A stretch of 59,488 nucleotides of DNA from Myxococcaceae bacterium (GTDB taxonomy: Bacteria; Myxococcota; Myxococcia; Myxococcales; Myxococcaceae). Under the pieces are notes generated by a model. The model was not told where the DNA came from. It saw nothing but the letters and a program-made list of their open reading frames with translations, and made no database searches. The DNA lies in NCBI GenBank assembly GCA_016926755.1, contig JAFGNZ010000397.1:1-59488 (forward strand), given 5' to 3'. How positions within the stretch are numbered: position 1 is the first letter of the stretch; every line of letters starts with the position of its first letter. Shown here one piece after another: positions 30,590-35,889 of the stretch. The translations under genes were made by a program, and so were the position numbers.

Positions 30590-30652
30590 TTCAGTGGAAT
30601 GCTCCCGGCGGAGCTTTTGACGAGCGTCTGAACATGAGCCCGAACCTCACCG
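30590..30652 (+). repeat. hsdR 5' boundary repeat, copy A
   Basis: This stretch covers the region just upstream of hsdR and its first six codons. It recurs in diverged form at 35648-35711, with a long identical core TGACGAGCGTCTGAAC followed by ATGAGCCC. It marks one end of an hsdR-derived duplication. Confidence 0.8.
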
Positions 30653-33600
30653 AGTCCGTGGCCGAGGAGGAGGCGCTTCGCTGGTTCGCGGAGCTGGGCT
30701 ACTCGGTGGTCGTCGCGCAGAAGAACGATCCCGGAGCGGACCGGGAGAGCCTTGGCGAGGTGCTCCTTCCTGCTCGCCTCACCGAAGCGGTGGATCATCT
30801 GAACCGCACGCTTCCGCCCGCAGCGCGCGAGGAGGCTGTTCGCAAGGTGCTCCTCCAGGAGCACCCCTCGCTCGTCCAGGAGAACCGTCGGAACCACCGG
30901 CTCCTCGTCGAGGGTGTCGAAGTGGAGTACCAGCAGGATGGCCGGGTCGTCGGTGAACGGGTCCGCCTGCTCGACTTCGAGAACCCGGAGAACAACGACT
31001 GGCGGGTGATCAGTCAGTTCACGGTCGTGGAGAACGGGCACAACCGCCGGCCGGACCTCACGGTGTTCGTGAATGGGCTCCCGCTCGCGGTCATCGAGCT
31101 GAAGAACGCCGCTGATGAAGAGGCCACCCTCTGGACGGCCTTCCACCAGCTCCAGACGTACAAGAAGGACATCCCTTCCCTCTTCCGTTTCAACGAGGTC
31201 CTCGTCGTCAGTGACGGGCTGGAGGCTCGCCTGGGCTCGCTGACGGCCAACCGGGAGCGGTTCGCCCCCTGGAGGACCATCGAGGGCGAGGCGCTCGCAC
31301 CCGCCACCCTCCTGGGGCTGGAGGTCCTGCTCAAAGGCGTCTTCGACAAGCGCCGGCTCCTGGACCTGGTGCGGCACTTCGTCGTCTTCGAGGAGGAAGA
31401 TGACGGCGTGGTGAAGAAGCTGGCGGGCTACCACCAGTTCCACGCGGTCCAACGGGCCGTGGACGCCACGGTCCAGGCCTCTCGGCCGACTGGGGATCGC
31501 CGCGTCGGTGTGGTCTGGCACACGCAAGGCTCGGGCAAGAGCCTCACGATGGCCTTCTACTCCGGCAAGGTCATTCTCCACCCGGACATGGAGAACCCGA
31601 CGATCGTCGTGCTCACGGACCGGAACGATCTCGACGACCAACTCTTCGGCACCTTCAGCCGCTGCCATGAGCTGCTCCGCCAGAAGCCCGTCCAGGCCGA
31701 GGACCGGGCGGACCTGCGCAAGAAGCTGAAGGTCTCCAGCGGCGGCGTCGTCTTCACGACCGTGCAGAAGTTCGTGCCCGAGGAGAAGGGCGATCGGTTC
31801 CCCCTGCTGTCCGACCGCCGGAACATCATCGTGGTGGCCGACGAGGCGCACCGCAGCCAGTACGACTTCATCGACGGGTTCGCCCGCCACCTGAGGGACG
31901 CGCTCCCCCATGCCAGCTTCATCGGCTTCACGGGCACGCCCATCGAGTCCACGGACAAGAACACCCGGGCCGTCTTCGGCGAGTACGTCAGCGTCTACGA
32001 CATCCAGCGGGCCGTTGAGGACGGCGCCACCGTGCCGATCTACTACGAGGGCCGGCTCGCCAGACTGGAGCTGAAGGCCGCCGAGCGCCCGAAGATCGAC
32101 GAGGAGTTCGAGGAAGTCACCGAGGGAGAGGAGGAGGTTCGCCGGGAGCGGCTCAAGAGCAAGTGGGCCCAGCTCGAGGCCATTGTCGGCACCGAGCAGC
32201 GGCTCCAGGTCATCGCGCGGGATCTCGTGGCGCACTTCGAGCGGCGGCTCGAGGCCATGGAGGGCAAGGCCATGATCGTCTGCATGAGCCGGCGCATCTG
32301 CGTGGACCTGTACCGGGAGCTCACCCGGCTACGGCCCGAGTGGCACAGCGACGAGGACGACAAGGGGAGCCTCAAGGTCGTGATGACGGGCTCGGCCTCG
32401 GACCGGCTCGACTGGCAGCCGCACATCCGCAACAAATCCCGCCGGGAGGCCCTGGCCAAACGCTTCAAGGATGCGAAGGATCCGCTGAAGCTGGTCCTGG
32501 TCCGAGACATGTGGCTGACGGGCTTCGACGCGCCGTCGGTCCACACGATGTACGTGGACAAGCCCATGCGCGGCCACGGGCTCATGCAGGCCATCGCACG
32601 GGTAAACCGCGTCTTCAGGAACAAGCCCGGTGGGCTGGTAGTGGACTACCTGGGGCTGGCGGACCAACTCCGGGCGGCCCTGGCCACGTACACGGAGGCG
32701 GGCGGCCGAGGCTCCACGGCCATCGATCAACGAGAGGCCGTCGCGGCCATGCTGGCCCGGTTCGAGATCTGCCAGGCCCTGTTCCATGGCCTCGACTATG
32801 CGCATGTGCTCGGTGCCCCGAAGCTGCTGCTGAACTTCCTGCCCACGGCCCAGGAGCACGTGCTCGCGCAGGAGGACGGCAAGGAGCGCTTTGTCCAGGC
32901 CGTCACGGAGCTCAGCAAGGCGTTCGCCCTGGCGGTGCCGCACGAGGACGCCCTGCGCATCCGCGACGAGGTGGCGTTCTTCCAGGCGGTGAAGGCCGCC
33001 CTGGTCAAGCGCTCGGCCGTGGATGCCAGGCCCGAGGAGGATCTCGATCATGCCATCCGGCAGATTGTCTCGCGGGCCGTGGCGGCCTCCGAGGAGGTCA
33101 TCGACATCTTCCAGGCGGCCGGGCTGAAGAAGCCCGACATCAGCATCCTCTCGGACGAGTTCCTCGCCGAGGTCCGCGGGCTGCCGCAGAAGAACGTGGC
33201 CCTGGAGCTGCTGCGGAAGCTGCTGAACGACGAGCTGAAGCGCCGCTCGCGGACCCACCTCGTCCAGTCCCGGGCCTTCTCGGAGATGCTCGAGCGAGCG
33301 CTCCGCGCGTACCGCAACCGTGCCCTCGAGACAGCGCAGGTCATCGAGGAGCTCATCAAGCTCGCCGGAGAAATGCGCCAGGCGCAGGCGCGCGGCGAGA
33401 AGCTGGGCCTCACTGATGACGAGCTGGCCTTCTACGAGGCGCTGGGCGTCAACGACGCGGCGGTGAGGGTGATGGGCGACAAGGTGCTCCGGGCCATCGC
33501 CAAGGAACTGACGGAGACGATCCGCAAGAACGTGAGCATCGACTGGACGCAGCGGGAGACCGCGCAGGCGAAGCTCAGGACCATGGTGCGGCGACTGCTC

Positions 33601-33843
33601 AGGAAGCATGGGTACCCACCCGATAAGCAGGAGCAGGCCACGCAGACGGTGATGGAGCAGGCGGAGCGACTCTGCGAGACGTGGGCCGAGGACGGCGTGC
33701 TGGAGGCCACGGTGACAAGCCTGCCCGTGAAGCAGTACCCCTCTGCTCCAGCAGAGCTTCCTTTGGCCGCGGAGCCGAAGCCGACCTACGGCCCGTCGAA
33801 GCCCTCCAAGCAGGCAAAGCCCCGACGGCGGCCCCGAAAGTAA
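30634..33843 (+). CDS. hsdR: type I restriction enzyme, ATP-dependent endonuclease subunit
   Basis: At 1069 residues this is a full-length HsdR. The N-terminal nuclease domain has the PD-(D/E)XK pattern RPDLTVF...AVIELKN (about 145-163). The helicase motor shows Walker A TQGSGKS (about 297), DEAH in [12 protein letters not shown] (about 402), [10 protein letters not shown] (motif III) and [13 protein letters not shown] (motif VI), followed by a helical C-terminus that docks on the methylase and a basic tail ([14 protein letters not shown]). The complex translocates DNA with ATP and cuts unmodified invaders. No frameshift is seen, so the system looks complete despite two extra genes between hsdS and hsdR. 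A deleted second copy of this gene lies at 35648-35889. Confidence 0.95.
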
Positions 33844-35521: not shown

Positions 35522-35647
35522 GGCTCACCGCCCTTCGGGAACCTCTCAGGCTCGACTCTCTTCCTCGCAGCCATGCGCAATCCTCCCTACTAGGTAGGAT
35601 ACCCTGCGTCAAACCTGGAAGCGCAAGCTGGCCACCCACGCCCCGAG

Positions 35648-35889
35648 TTCCAATGAAATGCTCCTGGCAGAGCCTCTGACGAGCGTCTGAACATGAGCCC
35701 CAACCGCACCGGCCCCGGCGGCGGCCCCGAAGGTAGGGCCTCCCCCGCGGAGCAGGGGGTGTGAGCCTGGGGCTGCTGCTGGCGGCGCACGGCAGCAACC
35801 TGGCGAGTTGTCTGACAGGTTGCGGGAGGCCGTCCCCGGTAGGTGAGCCCTGGGTGGCTCGGGCACGGTTCTGAGCAGTCTGCCCCCCC
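35648..35889 (+). pseudogene. hsdR deletion scar: both gene ends joined, body missing
   Basis: 35648-35711 matches the sequence before hsdR plus its first six codons; 35712-35889 matches the last eight codons of hsdR plus its downstream flank. The roughly 3.2-kb gene body is missing between CACCG and GCCCCG. The join shifts the frame, leaving a 23-codon frame from ATG 35693. The noncoding flanks on both sides are retained, so this is a former full copy of the locus and not a random fragment. The hairpin of the downstream flank is kept (GCAACCT at 35795-35801, AGGTTGC at 35817-35823). Otherwise the 35,522-36,019 interval holds no gene. Confidence 0.85.

Follow-up and report, generated by a model that had tools for sequence, protein, structure and literature searches.

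Introduction

Pseudogene relics in bacteria can be left by gene duplication and deletion. A further process, insertion with long target duplication of restriction-modification (R-M) genes, was reportedly described by Nobusato et al. in 2000 and by Furuta et al. in 2010. The target duplications described for R-M systems are long and variable, on the order of 100 bp (PMC3874152, PMC3031569).

The window analyzed here is a whole contig of 59,488 bases (C116) from a 9.6-Mb draft genome. In it, a restriction gene has probably undergone duplication followed by loss, and the repeats left behind could remove the genes between them. The host is a soil bacterium.

The Type I Restriction-Modification Locus

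The intact hsdR gene (30634-33843, plus strand) encodes a protein of 1069 amino acids with an HSDR_N domain, a SWI2/SNF2 ATPase, and a HindI-like C-terminal domain. According to the Pfam matches (HSDR_N at 1.5e-47, SWI2_SNF2 at 1.1e-81, and T1RH-like_C at 2.5e-129), both the nuclease N-terminal domain and the SWI2/SNF2 motor by which HsdR is recognized are present. Genes for the HsdM methylase (Pfam N6_Mtase at 1.2e-112, HsdM_N at 2.4e-29) and the HsdS specificity subunit (Methylase_S in Pfam at 7.1e-06, Specificity_I at 2.6e-76) are located nearby. In comparisons with four relatives, hsdR shows a dN of about 0.11 and a dS of 0.77-0.86. Consequently, the gene is maintained by purifying selection, and its product presumably continues to act with those of hsdM and hsdS upstream.

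The spacing between hsdS and hsdR is unusual. For comparison, five relatives were used, the best 5 of the 37 other family genomes with an hsdR match. In four of them, from other genera (G028, G073, G068, and G072, with HsdR proteins 83-84% identical to the one in the window), two bases separate the end of hsdS from the hsdR ATG, and in the fifth (G024, 77% identical) the gap to the likely hsdR start is five bases. The window has 2,155 bases in place of these 2-5. This distance is taken up by a two-gene cassette on the plus strand (28521-30477), consisting of orf1 (28521-29324) and orf2 (29470-30477), which occurs in multiple copies in related genera. Neither gene matches any family in Pfam, NCBIfam, or PADLOC. 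Homologues of the two stand side by side in all 11 other loci examined; orf2 comes first in nine of these, orf1 comes first in one (L159), as it does here, and one (L160) is a tandem array. The orf2 family is found in 15 of 96 family genomes, including that of the host. As a guess, the two products could be an effector and its partner.

An Ends-Only Copy of hsdR

Downstream of hsdR, the gene order is a 41-codon open reading frame (ORF) and a kinase gene, both on the minus strand, then a scar, and finally two SPFH/Band-7 genes. The scar, 248 bp long (35642-35889), is a collinear fusion of the 5' border and the 3' border of hsdR. Its 5' arm (35642-35711, plus strand) corresponds to 30583-30652, with 59 of 70 positions identical in a global alignment. 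Its 3' arm (35712-35889, plus strand) corresponds to 33819-33996, with 164 of 179 alignment columns identical, 13 mismatches, and 2 single-base gaps. The repeat finder recovers the same relationships, with the 5' pair at 84% and the 3' pair in two pieces (33819-33910 with 35712-35803 at 95%, and 33912-33996 with 35804-35888 at 91%). The two arms join without an intervening base between 35711 and 35712. The 5' arm comprises 51 nt of the hsdR leader and the initial 19 nt of the gene, while the 3' arm comprises the final 25 nt of the gene, including the stop codon, and 153 nt of downstream sequence. Only 44 of the 3,210 coding nucleotides of hsdR are thus represented, 3,166 nt are missing, and no hsdR reading frame survives.

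The resemblance is far beyond chance for both arms. In a search of the whole 9.6-Mb genome, the 5' arm alone gives an E value of 1.1e-14 and the 3' arm one of 5.2e-68. Compared without gaps along the window, the 5' arm finds its second-best partner at 36 of 70 identical positions, against 59 of 70 for the real pair. The 100 bases beyond the arms show no similarity, either in the left outer flank (101 of 1000 shuffles reach the score) or in the right one (569 of 1000). A first-pass annotation had proposed a second hsdR copy reduced to its ends, and both borders are indeed present in the scar and collinear; the similarity includes the start region of the gene as well as the downstream flank. The coordinates given there are off by 6-7 bases at the left ends, and the length of 242 bp has to be corrected to 248 bp. 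As stated there, the 178-bp direct repeats bracket the kinase gene (34145-35521) and the tiny lipoprotein-like ORF (34023-34148).

The leader carried by the scar is informative about its parent. A 15-nt repeat lies across the hsdS stop (28468-28482, plus strand) and recurs twice with 14 of 15 positions, once across the start of hsdR (30621-30635) and once within the scar (35680-35694). The scar and hsdR share these 15 nt, which span the hsdS end and the hsdR start, together with the preceding 38 nt (30583-30620), so the parent of the scar had the leader of this locus. This non-operonic leader stands before hsdR here and in none of the five relatives examined. The shared unusual leader identifies this locus, and not a foreign operon, as the source of the relic. 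An origin of the entire 5' leader from hsdS was considered and rejected, since the good match is limited to the 15 nt; the full score of the similarity to hsdS is reached by 20 of 2000 shuffles for the leader and by 223 of 2000 for the scar.

The Variable Site Between asnS and acnA

The R-M genes, the kinase, and the SPFH genes together occupy a variable segment of 13.6 kb between asnS and acnA (25157-38797). Two sister species, G001 and G003, lack the segment, and their asnS lies directly next to acnA. The inserts at this place in G002 and G006 consist of other genes and measure about 11 kb; among nine proteins tested from them, each genome has two VgrG-like spike proteins, one DUF2169 protein, and one Tox-PAAR-like protein. 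For G004 and G005, a stretch of 19.9 kb around asnS, of which about 15 kb lies on the downstream side, was examined and no acnA was found in it. The asnS-acnA loci L147, L148, L151, and L152 are either empty or have VgrG/DUF2169/PAAR-like content. The interval is thereby marked as a site with species-dependent gene content in the genus.

Elsewhere in its genome, G002 has a gene pair 88% identical to the SPFH genes of the window, and the similarity starts at 35910, 21 bp past the scar. Together with the kinase paralogue on contig C146 described below, this pair indicates that parts of the variable segment have separate histories. Such a site could, in principle, have been assembled by a merger, in which one island, with the SPFH genes and a decayed hsdR beside them, and another, with the intact system, came together. 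The presence of unrelated genes at this site in two sister species and the SPFH-like pair in G002, alike from so close to the scar onward, are in line with a merger. However, the scar carries the unusual leader of this very hsdR, so that a merger would require two islands of closely similar sequence at that place. It is regarded as unlikely. In its main consequence it overlaps with the explanation preferred below, as a second hsdR would once have existed in either case.

The Kinase Cassette and Possible Insertion with Target Duplication

The gene at 34145-35521 (minus strand) encodes a Ser/Thr protein kinase, and the start of the 41-codon ORF (34023-34148, minus strand), judged lipoprotein-like by eye, overlaps the kinase stop. 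At the DNA level, the cassette formed by the two (34029-35612) shares 79% identity with a paralogue on contig C146, and the region of the small ORF is homologous there from 34029 on. No Pfam or NCBIfam match was obtained for the small ORF (the query, 34029-34151, had one extra residue in front and lacked the last two). Paralogues of the kinase and tiny-ORF cassette occur in the host genome on contigs C146, C94, and C384, with protein identities of 78%, 76%, and 57%, respectively, the last of these being cut by a contig end. The kinase matches MAD6 with 104.9 bits, below the NCBIfam cut-off of 460, and a methylation-associated defence system (MADS) is not recognized by it; it also matches the PD-T4-6 model. 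The host genome has 138 matches to this kinase among the best 150 of 250 candidates. Given this number and the MAD6 score far below the cut-off, membership of the kinase in a named defence system is not claimed.

The cassette fits between the repeats with 32 and 29 bp to spare. This tight fit favors a reading in which entry of the kinase cassette duplicated the whole hsdR unit on both sides of itself, and the body of the second copy was lost later. Long, variable target duplications are described for R-M systems (PMC3874152, PMC3031569), and the orf1/orf2 cassette in the same locus is flanked by a near-repeat of 16 out of 18 positions (28468-28485 and 30621-30638, E 0.007). The comparison loci weaken the latter point. 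In nine of the 11 other orf1/orf2 loci, the best flank matches are just 12-20 bp, with E values from 0.003 to 1.6. One of these (L165, E 0.003) and another locus (L162), which has a 31-bp repeat at 87% (E 4.9e-07), outscore the 18-bp repeat of the window, and by the scan alone that repeat is therefore not significant. The claim of the 15-nt hsdS/hsdR repeat accordingly rests on where it lies, spanning the stop of hsdS and the start of hsdR, and not on the flank scan. The remaining locus (L160, contig C55 of G002) has orf1 in tandem copies with orf2 between them, and its 296-bp direct repeat at 78% reflects the tandem orf1 copy.

Further points speak against such an insertion. Two other kinase cassettes in the genome both lack a flanking direct repeat longer than 17 bp, a target of 3.4 kb far exceeds the described lengths, and no uninserted relative is known. 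An insertion that duplicated the hsdR unit is regarded as rather unlikely. It is nevertheless one route to the duplicate and, to this extent, part of the preferred explanation: the kinase may have entered after the duplication or as its cause, and the tight fit favors the latter. A bolder generalization would be that the multi-copy two-gene cassettes of these myxobacteria (kinase plus small lipoprotein-like ORF, and orf1 plus orf2) spread by insertion with duplication of a target whose length varies, being about 15 bp at the end of hsdS and as much as the entire 3.4-kb hsdR unit, with the duplicate of the restriction gene since collapsed to its ends; this is very doubtful. If insertion with duplication were true, it would offer a testable route for the multiplication of kinase cassettes in myxobacteria.

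Divergence of the Arms and Probable Lack of Function

The arms differ by 24 substitutions and two gaps, or about 10%. Nineteen of the 24 substitutions are transitions, which fits the expectation for neutral drift. For comparison with the sister species G001 and G003, two short core intergenic stretches were aligned over 53-95 columns and differ by 16-21% (79-84% identity). The divergence of asnS and acnA from these species is 8-9%, and a third core spacer gave no alignment in either of them. The comparison suggests that the duplication is younger than the split from G001 and G003, a rough estimate from two short stretches. The 5' arms have diverged at 11 of 70 positions and the 3' arms at 13 of 177 (Fisher p = 0.057), and a single common age of the arms is therefore not certain. 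If G028 represents the older state, both substitutions in the 19 coding nucleotides of the 5' arm would have arisen in the scar.

The better preservation of the 3' arms (92%, against 84% for the 5' arms) could point to a functional element, such as a terminator, a regulatory RNA, or a recombination site. The remaining observations are hard to reconcile with this. The 3' arms (148 of the 178 nt of each) fold no better than shuffled sequences, with z = -0.64 and +0.64. Between 30400 and 36100, no promoter-like site was found, and four terminator-like matches compare with 2.0 expected; the only one within the arms is a weak match on the minus strand (35673-35660). No further copy was found in the host genome (best 40 of 206 first-look candidates) or in the order (best five candidates per genome). 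RNA structure or a terminator in the scar was therefore rejected, and a functional role of the fusion is extremely improbable. The scar appears instead to be a product of decay, a relic without function.

Searches for Further Copies

Besides the best 40 of 206 first-look candidates in the host genome, 144 other genomes of the order were searched (E up to 1e-5, best five candidates per genome): 143 were without a match, and in the remaining one (G132) 38 GC-rich bases matched. No copy was found in 72,556 plasmid records. Within the scope of these searches, a mobile or repeated element was rejected. A separate search of 59 genomes including the host (E up to 0.001) returned seven matches of 22-39 bp inside the 3' arm from six others. 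In every case one reading frame stays open throughout the surrounding fragment and the BLAST match stops there, and all seven were set aside as chance matches in GC-rich coding sequence.

For hsdR itself, 96 family genomes were searched with at most the best eight candidates per genome. A match was obtained in 38 of them, the host and 37 others, and in none was there a second close full-length match; the second match in the host genome is partial, at 31%. A two-copy relative, for which the first-pass annotation had suggested looking, was thus not recovered in this sample. The same holds for its other suggestion, a kinase-free locus with a single repeat, since apart from the 38-base match the 144 order genomes lack the repeats (best five candidates each). 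No relative with the hsdR flank of this locus was found among the 96 family genomes (best eight candidates each) and the 144 order genomes (best five each). In G016 (contig C30, 74647-77744), an hsdR relative lies in two pieces in different frames, apparently a broken copy. Among the titles listed in a literature search, none deals with an ends-only hsdR relic.

Origin of the Relic

The most probable explanation, held with reasonable confidence, is that the hsdR unit was duplicated, that its copies came to flank the kinase cassette, and that the body of the downstream copy was deleted. The unit of leader, gene, and downstream flank, equivalent to 30583-33996, would once have been present twice, with one copy on either side of today's kinase and small-ORF cassette. 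The downstream copy would then have lost 3,166 bp in one or more deletions ending near the start and the stop of the frame, apparently using no repeat visible by eye. What remained would be the 70 + 178 bp of today, without function and about 10% different from the parent.

Several observations support duplication followed by loss. Two independent matches on the same strand are collinear and abut exactly, and hsdR itself is intact and conserved. Both the first hsdR codons, carried by the 5' arm, and the codons for Lys-Pro-Arg-Arg-Arg in the 3' arm are common to hsdR of other genera; because both arms hold conserved hsdR coding sequence, the scar is not a pre-existing empty site. An arm divergence of about 10%, below that of the core intergenic stretches, fits a duplication within this lineage.

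Other observations stand against it. The deletion ends lie at most 19 nt and 25 nt from the gene ends with no microhomology at the joint evident by eye, and a random deletion would rarely fall so. No genome examined has two full hsdR copies or the arms (best candidates per genome). In addition, the fit of the kinase cassette within 32 and 29 bp is not explained by a simple tandem duplication.

An alternative is a templated repair, in which a break by the SPFH genes was mended with 70 bp and then 178 bp copied from hsdR, so that a full second hsdR never existed. Such a repair could do without a full duplicate, of which the relatives searched gave no example (best candidates per genome). However, the patches keep gene order, orientation, and adjacency and cover both gene ends, and only by coincidence would a template jump span the reading frame almost exactly. 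Patch repair is regarded as quite improbable. Because copying of two short hsdR patches would leave an identical sequence, the earlier statement that a duplicated hsdR "must have existed" is too strong, while duplication followed by loss of the body stands as the best reading.

Recombination Between the Repeats

The repeats now present could recombine. The longest identical run is 35 nt in the 178-bp repeats and 24 nt in the 70-bp arms. A crossover between the 3' arms would plausibly excise a segment of 1,893 bp that includes the kinase pair and leave hsdR with one 3' arm, while a crossover between the 5' arms would delete 5,059 bp, comprising hsdR and the kinase pair. The proposal that the repeats could remove the kinase pair is mechanically plausible in view of the 35-nt run, but no relative carries a resolved repeat: products of either arm pair were absent from the genomes examined, including the 144 other order genomes (best five candidates each). 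As evidence of turnover at a variable site, the relic is a single case. Neither this probable duplication and loss nor the variable asnS-acnA interval overturns current views.

Comparison with Known Systems

The locus resembles type I R-M systems in that hsdM, hsdS, and hsdR are all present with open frames in one segment. It differs in that a two-gene cassette parts hsdS from hsdR and an hsdR relic lies downstream. The resemblance to R-M insertions with long target duplication lies in genes bracketed by long direct repeats at an R-M locus, here flanking the possibly inserted genes immediately (32 and 29 bp). The difference is that the insert would be a kinase cassette and the target a restriction gene, with no uninserted relative known. 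With bacterial pseudogene relics, the scar shares short remnants that are collinear with an intact paralogue and reach into its coding ends, the loss of any hsdR frame, and neutral-looking drift; it is an ordinary kind of relic. Its distinguishing feature is that both ends are nearly exact and the body is wholly gone, which makes it an ends-only relic.
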